Below, one piece after another: positions 2,424 through 6,666 of a DNA stretch of 12,307 nt; positions within the stretch are counted from its first letter, which is position 1; each line of letters opens with the position of its first letter. The translations under genes and the position numbers were made by a program. The stretch covers positions 1-12,307 of the forward strand of contig LGET01000028.1 in NCBI GenBank assembly GCA_001507935.1. The letters are read 5' to 3'. Under the pieces are notes generated by a model that searched no databases, was not told the origin of the DNA, and saw nothing but the letters and a program-made list of their open reading frames with translations. Source of the stretch: Thermococcales archaeon 44_46 (lineage in GTDB: Archaea > Methanobacteriota_B > Thermococci > Thermococcales > Thermococcaceae).

Positions 2424-3038
2424 CTAAAGTTCTCCTTCAATCTCCTTAAGGAGCCTTTCAATAAACTCCTCAACAAACCTATGCCTTTCCTCTGCTAGTC
2501 TTTTTGCAGTTTTTGTGTACATTAAATCCTTAAGCTTTAGTATTTTCTCTTCAAAGTGCTTTATGGAAGCCTCAATATCCCGTCCATGTTCCCCTGAATA
2601 CATAAAGACCCTCGCAACTCCTATAGCCCCTATTGCATCAAGCTTATCAGCATCACTGAGGATTTTTGCTTCAAGCGTTTGAGGTTCTGGCGGCCTTGAG
2701 AACCGATGGGCCTCAATTGCGTGAACAACGTCCTCAACTTTCTGATAGTTAAGGGAAGTCAGGAACCTGCGAGCAATTTTTGCGCTTTCCTTAGCGTGGT
2801 CTTCAACAAGTCCTTTATCCTCCAGAGGCCTGGCAATATCATGAAGCAGAGCAGCTAAAGCCAAAACGTCCAAATCCGCTCCCTCTACCTTACCAATATG
2901 TAAGCATAGATTGAAGACCCTTTTAACGTGAGAAAACCCATGAGTCCCCTCCCGCTCAAAGAAGTCTCTGGCAAATTCTTCGACCTTTTTGATTAGCTCT
3001 ATGCTTTTTTTATCTTTTATGTACTCTTCAACCCTCAT
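2424..3038 (-). CDS. HD-domain metal-dependent phosphohydrolase
   Basis: A 204-residue soluble protein of the HD superfamily (HDIG-like), whose members hydrolyse phosphate esters of nucleotides or cyclic nucleotides with divalent metals. Visible ligands are H37 in GFSHVKRV, the HD pair H66-D67 in LLHDIA, His in the VEDH segment (H81), His in HAIEAHRFS, and Asp in SDADKLDAIG. All expected positions are present, so it is probably active; the substrate cannot be inferred. A GTG at 3047 would start the protein three residues earlier and make a GTGA overlap with the upstream stop. It has no ribosome binding site, whereas the ATG at 3038 is preceded by AGGTGA at good spacing, so I chose the ATG. 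It is the last gene of the six-gene operon, with coupled translation likely. Confidence 0.9.
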   Translation of the reverse strand: MRVEEYIKDKKSIELIKKVEEFARDFFEREGTHGFSHVKRVFNLCLHIGKVEGADLDVLALAALLHDIARPLEDKGLVEDHAKESAKIARRFLTSLNYQKVEDVVHAIEAHRFSRPPEPQTLEAKILSDADKLDAIGAIGVARVFMYSGEHGRDIEASIKHFEEKILKLKDLMYTKTAKRLAEERHRFVEEFIERLLKEIEGEL

Positions 3039-3043
3039 CCTCT

Positions 3044-3859
3044 TCACCTGATTTTATTCTCAACAATGGAACTAAGCAACCTTAAAAATCTTTTATGTAC
3101 TTCAATAGGTACACCATCAACACTGAGCTCGGGTTTTTTGATAACCCCATCTATAACTCCTGAAGATACCAAAGCCTTCAAAATCTTTTCTTCCTCATTC
3201 TCCCAGCCGGCTAGCATGTTTTTCCCCAGCTCAAGAGACGCCTGGGCAATTAACCCATAAGCCCCCCAGTTAGACACCGCAGAGAGAACTAAAGAATCAA
3301 CTTCGATGACACTCCCTATTTTCTCTCCAAACTTTATGTACTTGCAGACTAACTCCCTTATGTTTCCCATCCCTATTTCGTTTCCTCCATCCCCGATACC
3401 AATTGTGGGAATGCCGAGCTCTCTAGCTTTTAAGAACAGCTCATCAAAAGGAGGCACCTCTATTTCCAGAGCGCTCATTGAGTAGTACTTCCCATCTTTG
3501 GCCCTTCCCGGTGTTTCAACACTTATTAAGAGAGAATAGTCCTCAATAGAGGGGTTCTGAGCAAAATTTACTTTAAATTCCTTAAGAGCATCTTGAATCT
3601 TTTTGCACGTCAGTATCTCGGCTTTTCCTCCCAGCTTTTCAACAGCTCTGTAGATGGCTAAAGCCCCAGGTGGACCATCGGTTTCGGCTATCTGCATCGG
3701 CGGAATTGGAAAACATGAAACAATCAAAACTCTGTCGAGATTTTTTAAAAATAAGGAAGTAGCTTCTCTCAAAAAATCAAAGTTATCTCTGCGATATTCA
3801 ATATAAAGCCTTAAGACGTTCCTTCCATAGATGTCGGTGTTTATTAGATGCCCTATCAT
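3044..3859 (-). CDS. D-glutamate cyclase-like protein (DUF4392/GLUCM C-terminal family)
   Basis: The 271 residues correspond to the catalytic C-terminal domain of mammalian D-glutamate cyclase (DGLUCY), which converts D-glutamate to 5-oxo-D-proline. Family-typical blocks are ETDGPPGA (59-66), ETPGRAKDG (115-123), GDGGNEIGMG (156-165) and SNWGAYGL (196-203). The acidic glycine-rich block probably binds a metal. The protein stands alone, without the N-terminal domain seen in the animal enzyme. Whether an archaeon uses it on D-glutamate is unknown, and another acid substrate is possible. The ATG follows GAGG by 7 bases and lies 3 bases after the stop of the 59-residue upstream gene. An out-of-frame ATG at 3866 is ignored. 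Family call is confident; the reaction is inference. Confidence 0.85.
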   Translation of the reverse strand: MIGHLINTDIYGRNVLRLYIEYRRDNFDFLREATSLFLKNLDRVLIVSCFPIPPMQIAETDGPPGALAIYRAVEKLGGKAEILTCKKIQDALKEFKVNFAQNPSIEDYSLLISVETPGRAKDGKYYSMSALEIEVPPFDELFLKARELGIPTIGIGDGGNEIGMGNIRELVCKYIKFGEKIGSVIEVDSLVLSAVSNWGAYGLIAQASLELGKNMLAGWENEEEKILKALVSSGVIDGVIKKPELSVDGVPIEVHKRFLRLLSSIVENKIR

Positions 3860-3862
3860 TTT

Positions 3863-4042
3863 TCATTCCTCGATTTCATATGCTATAATTTTGACTTTTT
3901 TGCCCTTTATTGCCTCTTTAAGGAGCCACCACAGTTCTGTTGGAGATTCTCTCCTGTGGGTTAACTTATCCCCATTCTCAAGCTCTATAACTTTCTCCTC
4001 GTATTTTACAAAGACCCCTTCCTTATTGAATATCTCCCTCAT
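3863..4042 (-). CDS. Small protein of unknown function, 59 residues
   Basis: A short frame fills the gap between the HAD and D-glutamate cyclase-like genes. Its ATG overlaps the HAD stop as ATGA, it has a GGGGGG ribosome binding site about 5 bases upstream, and it ends 3 bases before the next start, so it fits the operon's coupling pattern. The product begins MREIFNKEGVF and ends IIAYEIEE. It has beta-rich ends, a charged middle and a central ELWWLLKEAIKGKK helix. There are no cysteines, signal peptide or membrane segment. I do not recognise a family. The shape, two beta segments flanking one amphipathic helix with a double Trp, suggests a small alpha/beta protein that may bind a partner. Gene reality is supported by spacing and codon pattern; function is unknown. 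Confidence 0.8.
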   Translation of the reverse strand: MREIFNKEGVFVKYEEKVIELENGDKLTHRRESPTELWWLLKEAIKGKKVKIIAYEIEE

Positions 4043-4683
4043 CTTAGACCCCCCAAGATTGTTCTCAGTTGGTGGAGGCTTCTGATTTCAAAATCCGCGA
4101 AGTTGTAATCCTCAACGCCTTCCCTATTAATCCATACTGCAAGCATTCCAACGTTTTTTGCTCCATAGACATCTTGGTGCAAATTATCCCCAATCATTAT
4201 GGATTCCTCAGGCTCCACATTTAATTTTTCGCAGGCATATAAAAATATTTTAGGGTCGGGTTTTACGGTTTTTACGTCTTCCCTAATCACGATTACATCA
4301 AAGTACTTATCAAGCTTTGTTATTCTTAGCTTTAACTTCTGGTACTCTGGACCGCTTGTTATCACGCCGAGCTTATACCCCTCTTCTCTCAGCCACTCCA
4401 AAGTTGGCTTCACATCAGGGAAAACGTGAATCTTGTGAGGATACTGCCTCAAGAGCTCCTCGTATCTAAAGTCCAGCCCAAAGATTTCAAAAAAGAAGTT
4501 CCAGTCGTGCCATTCGTAAGTATCCTTTTTCTCAGAAATCTCTCTAAGGAATTTTAATCTGGCATCTCCTCTCGAAATCCCCAACTTCTTTGAAAGCATA
4601 TCATAGACCTGGGGGAGAAAGAGCATTATAAGCGGTTTTTCACTTAAAAGGGTCTCATCTATGTCAAAGAACACCGCTTCCAT
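4039..4683 (-). CDS. HAD-superfamily hydrolase (subfamily I)
   Basis: A 214-residue haloacid dehalogenase-fold enzyme, most likely a magnesium-dependent phosphatase. Motif I is DIDET at 7-11 (nucleophile D7, acid/base D9). Motif II is ITSGP around T109/S110. Motif III is K141 in VKPDPKIF. Motif IV is GDNLHQD with D166 and D171. All four are intact. A helical cap (about 15-85) lies between motifs I and II, as in subfamily I, and contains aromatic-rich EWHDWNFFFEIF. Similar archaeal proteins are often named phosphoglycolate or glyceraldehyde-3-phosphate phosphatases, but nothing here fixes the substrate. A TTG at 4719 would add 12 residues overlapping the upstream gene. The ATG at 4683 has GGGGTGGT just upstream and lies one base after the upstream TAG, so it is preferred. 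Confidence 0.92.
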   Translation of the reverse strand: MEAVFFDIDETLLSEKPLIMLFLPQVYDMLSKKLGISRGDARLKFLREISEKKDTYEWHDWNFFFEIFGLDFRYEELLRQYPHKIHVFPDVKPTLEWLREEGYKLGVITSGPEYQKLKLRITKLDKYFDVIVIREDVKTVKPDPKIFLYACEKLNVEPEESIMIGDNLHQDVYGAKNVGMLAVWINREGVEDYNFADFEIRSLHQLRTILGGLR

Positions 4684-4684
4684 C

Positions 4685-5440
4685 CTACCACCCCTTAACC
4701 AAAAGGGAGAGGATTTCAACCTGATCCTTTAAGCCCTCTTCCATCTTTACCCCCCATATTATGTCTTTCTCTTTTAAGAGGCTTTGAAACATGCTGAGTA
4801 TTTTGTGAGCATAATTCAGCGGGACTTTTTCACCAACTAAGATGTTCACCAAGCCCCTGTCCCATATTCCCCAGTGCCAGTCAAAATCAACCTTCCTTAA
4901 AAGACGTAATATGCCCACGTTGTTTCCCTTTACCATGCTAAAGAAGTCAGCGTAATCAACATTTACCAGCATTTGGTTTTCTAGGTAATAGTAGAGTCTC
5001 GTGAACATCAGGCCAATATTTTTTGCTGCCATTTGGAATGCAGACTCAAGGGACGAAGAGGTGTATTCGTCAAGAAATTCCCACAAGGAGTCATAAAATA
5101 CGGTGTCAAAGTTCTCCGCCCATTGAGGCTTTTCTTCGTTAATAAGCTCCCTTTGGGGGGTAAGGAGGTAAGCCAGTTTAAGGGGCTTTCGCGGCACATA
5201 TTCCAGAATAATTTGCATTATTTCAACATTTACTGGCTTATTTTCAAGGATAAACCATAAAATTGCATCATCCGGAATGTTCCAGAACAACTCCTTAAGG
5301 TTTTGACGGAAAGAAGACCTTCCAAGCAGATAATATGTTGGATTTATCACGATCTTTGGGGTTCTTTTTATATCAATATTTTGAACAACTTTGCCCCCAT
5401 TATTCCCAATTCCAACGAAAATATGGGAAAAAGAAACCAT
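4685..5440 (-). CDS. Degenerate tubulin/FtsZ-superfamily-like protein
   Basis: A 251-residue protein I would otherwise call hypothetical. Its motif order resembles FtsZ/CetZ. VGIGNNGGKVV (9-19) is like the N-terminal T1 glycine loop. A beta strand ILWFILENK (60-68) sits where FtsZ has the T4 loop, but GGGTG(T/S)G is absent. LKLAYLLTPQRE (87-98) resembles the following strand with its Pro. ESAFQMAAKNIGLM (132-145) is helix-like. NVDYAD (160-165) matches the NxDxxD T7 loop, followed by a Gly-containing strand (NNVGILRL). So it may be a non-GTPase relative of FtsZ. The C-terminal FtsZ domain looks shortened. GTG at 5449 overlaps the HPS-PHI stop but lacks a ribosome binding site; ATG at 5440 follows GAGTGAT. 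The gene call is firm; the superfamily is inference. Confidence 0.8.
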   Translation of the reverse strand: MVSFSHIFVGIGNNGGKVVQNIDIKRTPKIVINPTYYLLGRSSFRQNLKELFWNIPDDAILWFILENKPVNVEIMQIILEYVPRKPLKLAYLLTPQRELINEEKPQWAENFDTVFYDSLWEFLDEYTSSSLESAFQMAAKNIGLMFTRLYYYLENQMLVNVDYADFFSMVKGNNVGILRLLRKVDFDWHWGIWDRGLVNILVGEKVPLNYAHKILSMFQSLLKEKDIIWGVKMEEGLKDQVEILSLLVKGW

Positions 5441-5445
5441 ATGGA

Positions 5446-6666
5446 TCACTCTAAGGTTGCGTGTTTTTTCTTCATCTCTTGTTCGGTCTTCTGGAACGTT
5501 GCCATTAGAAGTGCTATGATACCGTCCAAGAACAGCATAGTTGAGTCTTCAAACAGCGTACCCATTGGAGCAATCCACTTGTATTGGGTGAGCATTTGCC
5601 TTGCAATATAATCGGTTGGAATGTCTGATTTTGTCCTTCCCGGAATCTCTACCACAACATCGGCAAGCTTTCCAAGAGTGGAGTCTTTATATGACGTTAT
5701 CGCAACAATTTTTCCGCTCTGCTTCTTCGCAATTTCAGCCGCATCTACTATCGTTCTTGTTTCACCACTACCACTGATTGCAATTAAGAGGTCTCCTTCT
5801 TCAAAGGCTGGGGTAATCGTTTCACCAACAACATAGACGTTAAAGTCAAGGTGCATCAAGCGCATTGCGAAAGCCTTGCCAACAAGGCCGCTTCTTCCGG
5901 CACCGTAAATGAAGATTTTATTTGCCCCTATCATGGCATCTACCATTCCTCTGACCTGCTCAAGCTTTAGAGAATCCGCAACCATGTTTATATGTTCGGT
6001 TATATCTTTGATCGCTTTTCTTATGGTAGCCATGTATTCACCCCAGAATAGGTCAATTATTTTTCTTGTGACTTCTTCGGGATCTTTCGCCTTTGTTATT
6101 GCGCCTCCAACAATGATAATAGTTGCCCCTGCTTCAATAACTTTGGGAATCGTTTCTAAGTTTAAGCCACCTGCAACAGCGACTGGGACTTTTACTGCTT
6201 TTACAACTTTCTCTAAATCTTCTAATGGGTTCTTTCCTTGGGCCTGCTCGTCTATTCCCGTGTGAACTAAAATGTAATGAACACCCATTTGCTCAAGTTC
6301 TTTAGCCCTTTTTACCTTATCCTTAACTCCTATTAGATCAACCATTACCTTTATTCCATACCTTCTTGCAACTGCCACAGCGTCTTTTATCGTCTTGTCA
6401 TCTGCAACTCCAAGTATTGAGACAACATCAGCACCGTGTCTCGCTGCCATCTCAACTTCAAGGGCCCCAGTATCCATTGTTTTTAAATCTGCTACAATTT
6501 TTCTATCGGGGAATCTTCTTTTCATTAGTTCTACAGCTCTCATGCCTTCCTTTTTTATTAGGGGAGTCCCCACTTCAAGCCAATGGGCTCCACCGCGAGC
6601 GGCTTTCTCTGCTATAGACATTGCTTGCTCTATATCAGTCAGATCAAGCGCTACCTGCAGGATCAT
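5446..6666 (-). CDS. Bifunctional hexulose-6-phosphate synthase/6-phospho-3-hexuloisomerase
   Basis: A 406-residue fusion. Residues 1 to about 210 are the HPS barrel of the OMP decarboxylase suprafamily, with the catalytic D60-x-K62-x-x-D65 set in VADLKTMDTG and the phosphate-binding VAGGLN and IIVGGAIT segments. Residues from about 212 are the PHI (SIS) domain, with IYGAGRSGLVGKAF and IAISGSGET. In Thermococcales the pair runs in reverse: fructose 6-phosphate is isomerised and split to ribulose 5-phosphate and formaldehyde, replacing the missing oxidative pentose phosphate pathway for nucleotide synthesis. The ATG at 6666 follows AGGAGGT by about 8 bases; an upstream TTG at 6693 is ignored. 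It is the first gene of a six-gene operon. The domain junction keeps its own ribosome binding site and ATG (6033). Confidence 0.96.
   Translation of the reverse strand: MILQVALDLTDIEQAMSIAEKAARGGAHWLEVGTPLIKKEGMRAVELMKRRFPDRKIVADLKTMDTGALEVEMAARHGADVVSILGVADDKTIKDAVAVARRYGIKVMVDLIGVKDKVKRAKELEQMGVHYILVHTGIDEQAQGKNPLEDLEKVVKAVKVPVAVAGGLNLETIPKVIEAGATIIIVGGAITKAKDPEEVTRKIIDLFWGEYMATIRKAIKDITEHINMVADSLKLEQVRGMVDAMIGANKIFIYGAGRSGLVGKAFAMRLMHLDFNVYVVGETITPAFEEGDLLIAISGSGETRTIVDAAEIAKKQSGKIVAITSYKDSTLGKLADVVVEIPGRTKSDIPTDYIARQMLTQYKWIAPMGTLFEDSTMLFLDGIIALLMATFQKTEQEMKKKHATLE
6031..6044 (-). promoter_or_regulatory. Internal ribosome binding site and ATG at the PHI domain start
   Basis: Inside the HPS-PHI gene the minus strand reads GGGGTGA, four bases, then ATG (start at 6033), exactly at the linker before the SIS domain (MATIRKAIKDI). 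Starting there would give a separate 195-residue PHI. This may be a relic of two ancestral genes or a working internal start. It was seen directly; use is unproven. Confidence 0.5.

Follow-up and report, generated by a model that had tools for sequence, protein, structure and literature searches.

FTSZL, a conserved FtsZ-like protein of Thermococcaceae that keeps the T7 loop and has very probably lost canonical GTP binding

Why is a putative relative of the cell division GTPase FtsZ encoded between a sugar-phosphate enzyme and a phosphatase, and what might it do if its GTP-binding signature is gone? This question is raised by a contig of Thermococcales archaeon 44_46 (LGET01000028.1), whose 12,307 nt constitute the window analyzed here. 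An open reading frame (ORF) at 4685..5449 on the minus strand encodes the protein in question, which we label FTSZL: the GTG start at 5449 yields 254 aa, and the in-frame ATG at 5440 yields 251 aa (4685..5440), as in the homologue P0001. Residues are numbered from this ATG. The initial annotation had assigned the protein to the FtsZ/tubulin superfamily and speculated that it might cap or regulate a true FtsZ or CetZ filament. Our results support this view: FTSZL is predicted to have the FtsZ fold and to be a pseudo-GTPase form of FtsZ, conserved throughout the family. Conservation was assessed on an alignment of 76 rows, obtained from 80 relatives after removal of four truncated sequences (P0075, P0076, P0079, and P0080); the other rows are 48-83% identical to the first.

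We compared FTSZL with known families using both the single sequence and the family profile. A phmmer search of PDB sequences with the single sequence placed FtsZ at the top of the list at an E-value of only 0.14, followed by an O-methyltransferase (0.86) that does not recur among the 30 distinct chains matched by the family profile at E <= 1. Every one of these chains is FtsZ or CetZ, the best being M. jannaschii FtsZ1 (E = 1.1e-6). Profile-profile comparison with hhalign, a check suggested by the initial annotation, gave Thermococcales FtsZ2 as the best match (Prob 97.8; E = 1.2e-12), followed by FtsZ1 (Prob 95.4), and the match to FtsZ is confined to columns 112-249, the C-terminal half. 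The match to CetZ was not significant (Prob 1.2). Among curated models, TIGR00065 (ftsZ) matches the window protein at E = 0.001, far under the model's cut-off score, and PF12327 (FtsZ_C) scores 13.5 bits where the cut-off is 27, without any PF00091, such that the pair of above-cut-off domains that marks FtsZ proper is absent. Across the alignment, 44 members match PF12327 at E <= 1, the strongest at 0.0013, and a single one matches PF00091 (E = 0.069). Pfam and NCBIfam returned only weak FtsZ matches for the window protein, and the other Pfam matches are scattered over 1-4 aligned members each and mutually inconsistent. The predicted structure presents the two-domain FtsZ/tubulin fold with the elements in FtsZ order, although by our reading of the model T3 and H9 are missing and H5 is reduced. 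No unrelated family was matched with confidence, and the profiles and the predicted model together make it nearly certain that FTSZL has the fold and descent of FtsZ, as had been proposed.

The motifs cited by the initial annotation are all present in FtsZ order, and their conservation across the alignment indicates more than chance resemblance. The T1-like loop VGIGNNGGK (residues 9-17; 5390..5416, this and the following on the minus strand) contains two glycines, G10 and G12, that are invariant in 76/76 rows. Where the T4 loop GGGTG(T/S)G is expected, the protein reads ENKPVN (residues 66-71; 5228..5245), with Glu or Asp at position 66 in all rows and N71 in 74/76. A T5-like TPxxE (5147..5161), whose strand ends in TP at 94-95, includes the invariant P95 and E98 (76/76), and the T6 position is occupied by an invariant FYDS (5087..5098), no row having an Asn in residues 113-118. 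The T7 catalytic loop NVDYAD (residues 160-165; 4946..4963) retains N160, D162, A164, and D165 in 76/76 rows. The window protein stops right behind the FtsZ-type C-terminal domain (4691..4921); 51 of the 76 rows end on a final Trp and 25 carry 2-14 extra residues.

The GTP hydrolysis site of FtsZ is common to two subunits (PMC8936486). In the S. aureus protein described there, the top subunit supplies N208, D210, and D213 of T7, and the nucleotide is surrounded by D46, Q48, R143, and the T3 residue G72 of the bottom subunit; mutants of D46, R143, N208, D210, or D213 abolish assembly, and Q48A assembles yet with less hydrolysis (PMC8936486). In FTSZL, we observed counterparts of N208, D210, and D213 in all 76 rows and of D46 and Q48 in no row. 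R143 has no clear equivalent, K104 (70/76) being a possible substitute. No row contains GG in the S4-T4-H4 stretch, and neither the T4 signature GGGTG(T/S)G of FtsZ nor the GGGTG of CetZ is found. The equivalents of the T6 Asn N166 and of the H7 Asp D187, the residue of FtsZ that reads guanine, are each absent from all 76 rows, the T5 and T6 equivalences being approximate because a small alignment gap is needed. N166 is among the GTP contacts of a published docking table (PMC10020519). The claim that this protein keeps T7 and lacks the nucleotide signature therefore holds across the whole alignment (NxDxxD in 76/76, T4 absent from 76/76), and this residue pattern indicates that canonical GTP binding has very probably been lost.

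The same elements were searched in the canonical paralogues as a control. T4 is present in all nine Thermococcaceae CetZ and in 10/10 FtsZ2 when GNGTG is included, and an ORF with GGGTGTG occurs at all 30 FtsZ1 loci, a set that had been picked by that motif. By strict pattern, NxDxAD was found in 10/10 FtsZ2, 23/30 FtsZ1, and 0/9 CetZ. As a separate observation, the T4 of FtsZ2 reads GNGTGTG and not GGGTGTG in six of the ten sequences (L091, L093, L094, L095, L096, and L110, from four Thermococcaceae genera); GGGTG is kept in two other genera (L097 and L098) and in two outgroup sequences (L099 and L106). This change occurs in the same cells as the pseudo-GTPase and the two could be related.

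What role would such a protein play? We tentatively propose, at somewhat short of an even chance and from sequence and model considerations, that FTSZL is an FtsZ-derived pseudo-GTPase that caps or sequesters FtsZ and acts as a brake on filament growth. It retains the bottom face, with T7 and both catalytic aspartates, H8, and the C-terminal domain, and its top face would no longer bind GTP or accept a subunit after the loss of T4, T3, the D46/Q48 positions, and the guanine-contact Asn and Asp. The T7 loop of FTSZL would dock on a genuine FtsZ at its GTP face, FtsZ2 being the likeliest partner, complete the active site of that subunit, and trigger hydrolysis; FTSZL itself, without a GTP face of its own, could not be bound in turn. 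FtsZ monomers loaded with GTP would thereby be sequestered and the nucleotide-exposed end of filaments capped. Growth has been tentatively placed at the T7-exposing end, which monomers join via their GTP face (PMC8936486); FTSZL sitting on that face would prevent monomers from entering filaments and cap the opposite end. The dose of FTSZL might track pentose supply through its position directly behind the gene of the HPS-PHI fusion (3-hexulose-6-phosphate synthase/6-phospho-3-hexuloisomerase), which yields ribulose-5-phosphate (Ru5P) for nucleotides. If true, FTSZL would be an end-binding protein that sets off the GTPase of FtsZ and is encoded in the genome, it would offer a tool to settle the growing end of archaeal FtsZ, and pentose supply would be tied to division in archaea. 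To our knowledge, and with no search aimed at this point alone, no natural member of the superfamily is reduced in this way to the neighbor-acting half of the composite GTPase site.

We then analyzed the distribution of the family. At E <= 0.001, we recovered 80 relatives by protein search and 85 by comparing the family profile with 5.8 billion proteins. The weakest of these 85 had an E-value of 1.1e-75, which leaves no intermediates; candidates in the profile search had to share short words, such that remote members could escape. Most of the 85 rows lack a named source, and the names that do appear in either search are Thermococcus, Pyrococcus, Thermococcaceae, or 'Thermococci archaeon'. FTSZL was detected in 89 of 94 Thermococcaceae genomes, near full length in 88 of them and as residues 97-249 only in G110. 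Five genomes lack it (G083, G095, G102, G107, and G109); their assemblies are split into 90-420 contigs, with completeness of 69-96%. In 21 genomes of the same class outside the family, no match exceeded the level of FtsZ itself (best E = 5e-7), and P0082 had no match among plasmid records. The protein thus occurs in nearly all Thermococcaceae and appears restricted to them. P0082 is the homologue of the genetically tractable T. kodakarensis. Two full-length copies were found in G112, and G115 carries, besides an intact copy elsewhere, a broken second one (G115:C2:360947-361698; one TGA, two pieces). Database names vary: 'FtsZ/tubulin family protein' (P. abyssi and T. gammatolerans), 'Cell division GTPase' (T. 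thioreducens), 'cell division protein FtsZ' (Pyrococcus sp. NA2), and a conserved hypothetical protein with leucine zipper motif (T. kodakarensis). PF0219, guessed to be the P. furiosus member, is actually the unrelated QueD.

The two genes that flank FTSZL in the window lie on the same strand. The HPS-PHI fusion is directly upstream (5446..6666, minus; NF041755 RuMP_HxlAB, E = 1.3e-167) and a HAD-family phosphatase directly downstream (4039..4683, minus; TIGR02253 above cut-off), for which a close relative has been solved (4ygq, E = 6.5e-99). Further down are a protein with a D-glutamate cyclase-like C-terminal domain (3044..3859, minus; PF14336, E = 1e-66, covering that domain only, and no NCBIfam model at E <= 1) and, following the cluster, an HD-domain phosphohydrolase gene (2424-3047). 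The junctions are tight: 5 nt separate the HPS-PHI stop from the ATG of FTSZL, with GAGTGATC just ahead of this ATG, and 1 nt separates the FTSZL stop from the HAD ATG. Across 55 loci, with starts taken as the nearest in-frame ones, 42 have a first spacing of 5-10 nt and 12 have one of 43-56 nt, the remaining distance (-756) being a stop-codon-walk artefact that was set aside; the second ranges from -20 to +8 nt in 55/55. The fixed place between a sugar-phosphate enzyme and a phosphatase, noticed by the initial annotation, is confirmed, with the three genes found together in 60/60 short loci (55 distinct genomes) and in 15/15 wide loci, which add seven genomes (62 distinct overall). The outer neighbors of the wide loci vary: cyclase-like and HD genes in 12/15, arginase-like in 5/15, and NusA-like in 5/15; the cyclase-like gene is present in 56/60 short loci. 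In five wide loci (L120-L124) the HD gene is oriented like the cluster that it follows, and it is inverted in all seven of the Pyrococcus type (L111-L116 and L125). HPS-PHI is described as yielding Ru5P for ribose-5-phosphate in these archaea (PMC12628685, introduction). As gene order, the link of FTSZL to pentose supply is well founded; we infer that the order is functionally meaningful and that the genes are co-transcribed.

Several results weigh against the capping role. The neighbors of FTSZL are metabolic and not division genes, and only the predicted structure and T1 connect its N-terminal half to FtsZ. In our tree (20 of the 76 FTSZL rows, 14 of the 30 FtsZ1; nine CetZ and two FtsZ2, L095 and L099, were left out as they did not match the cutting motif), all 20 FTSZL rows form one side of a branch with a very long stem, not nested in FtsZ1 or FtsZ2 with support. 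The conservation of T7 could serve folding. In addition, G10, G12, P95, E98, Y116, D117, and S118, all outside T7, are invariant in 76/76 rows. Invariants occupy 6/9 columns of T6 (P = 0.001), an enrichment at least as high as in T7-H8-S7 (11/27; P = 0.003), and two stretches of the C-terminal domain are also enriched (5/9 and 4/5 columns), in a comparison of eight regions whose bounds were chosen after viewing the columns and with uncorrected P values. This conservation suggests that the ancestral pocket has a remaining task, for instance the binding of a different ligand, for which a mere cap would have no use. The equivalents of T133 (61/76), E139 (76/76), and the T1 glycines (76/76) are kept, and these are contacts that face phosphate and ribose. 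All are listed as GTP contacts in the docking table (PMC10020519). The pocket is not drifting, and we therefore retain the reading in which the remodeled pocket (T1 GxG, T5 P..E, T6 FYDS, H7 F/Y) accommodates a different nucleotide or a sugar phosphate, whose binding switches the effect of FTSZL on FtsZ. Its positions are altered yet invariant, N166 and T4 having been lost, and the neighboring enzyme makes Ru5P; the conserved residues may nonetheless merely pack a shortened domain, the T5/T6 equivalences are approximate, and the ligand is a postulate, all of which makes this reading rather doubtful. Slightly more doubtful is its fusion with the capping proposal, in which the pocket would sense Ru5P, F6P, or hexulose-6-phosphate and T7 would stop or release FtsZ assembly, such that cells divide only when ribose for nucleotides is available.

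The constant triplet of genes, maintained with tight junctions while the outer genes change, would also fit a protein working outside the cytoskeleton as a partner, chaperone, or allosteric subunit of HPS-PHI or HAD, with a purely structural T7. We consider this unlikely, if a little less so than ligand sensing: an invariant NxDxAD and an FtsZ-type C-terminal domain would not be expected, passages of PMC12628685 on the HPS-PHI fusion attribute the reaction to it and mention no additional protein, and FTSZL evolves far faster than HPS-PHI (about 50-60% versus about 90% identity to the window's proteins in more distant loci). Alternatively, FTSZL might bind nucleotide through a rebuilt T4 ([ED]xxxxN) and be a GTPase or filament former in its own right. 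The replacement loop is itself conserved and FtsZ2 of the same family tolerates a T4 change, but the equivalents of T4, D46, N166, and D187 are lost jointly, T3 is missing from the predicted order, and no glycine-rich loop stands in for T4, which renders this improbable. Finally, the long stem, the fast divergence relative to HPS-PHI, and the broken copy in G115 might recall the relic of an FtsZ duplication hitch-hiking in the cluster. This is scarcely credible. Indeed, the frame is intact, without internal stops, in 37/37 Thermococcaceae genomes, 45 residues are invariant in 76 rows, and dN/dS ranges from 0.034 to 0.139 over 12 locus pairs, within the range of the neighbors, the estimate being rough where dS approaches or exceeds 1, as it does in several pairs. 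FTSZL is not a relic.

Among known systems, archaeal FtsZ2 and FtsZ1 (PF00091 + PF12327; TIGR00065) are the nearest, with the fold predicted for FTSZL, the same element order, the T7 NxDxAD, H8, and the C-terminal domain. Relative to them, FTSZL lacks T4, D46/Q48, and the guanine-contact Asn and Asp, besides the T3, H5, and H9 differences of the model, and is much shorter (about 250 aa against roughly 370-415 aa, with at most 14 residues past the last conserved Trp). CetZ presents the reverse pattern, with T4 in 9/9 and NxDxAD in 0/9 Thermococcaceae sequences. The plant protein ARC3 is likewise FtsZ-derived and regulates FtsZ rings without forming them, which resembles the role proposed here; in contrast to FTSZL, it keeps the GTPase-like half and lacks the T7/C-terminal half. 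FtsZl1 (Tubulin_2, PF13809) and FtsZl2 are, like FTSZL, divergent paralogues outside the canonical families (PMC2875224). As described there, both have the GTP-binding loop, by which FtsZl2 was sought, and long extra C-terminal regions: a coiled coil and helical domain in FtsZl1, whose T6-H7 and FtsZ C-terminal domain are unrecognizable, and about 300 aa in FtsZl2, which has all nucleotide motifs (PMC2875224). FTSZL, without T4 and at about 250 aa in total, fits neither description, PF13809 matching just 2/76 members (best E = 0.38); with its C-terminal half kept, it is the mirror image of FtsZl1. A long Tubulin_2 protein with GGGTGSG, of the FtsZl1 type, is encoded in the Pyrococcus-type genome G018 (L107/L128), and none was found in the 11 other Thermococcaceae genomes tested.

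Our literature searches, by family and by guessed locus tags in a collection that lacks most subscription papers, found no dedicated description of the FTSZL family. The introduction of Makarova & Koonin (2010; PMC2875224) mentions archaeal FtsZ paralogues of obscure roles that lack function-relevant motifs, naming none at that point, and FTSZL could be one of these. The account of Brown & Duggin (2023; PMC9856176) gives one CetZ per species in Thermococcales and reports an additional 'highly divergent TSF protein' in Thermococcus AM4 and T. gammatolerans, deemed likely strain-specific or redundant. This protein is probably FTSZL, because in G068, the genome where P0059 (T. gammatolerans by name) is encoded at 100%, FTSZL accompanies three PF00091 proteins whose sizes correspond to FtsZ1, FtsZ2, and CetZ, and Tubulin_2 proteins are absent. 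In contrast to a strain-specific protein, FTSZL is family-wide; if the two are the same, the published impression would be revised to that of a family nearly universal in Thermococcaceae.
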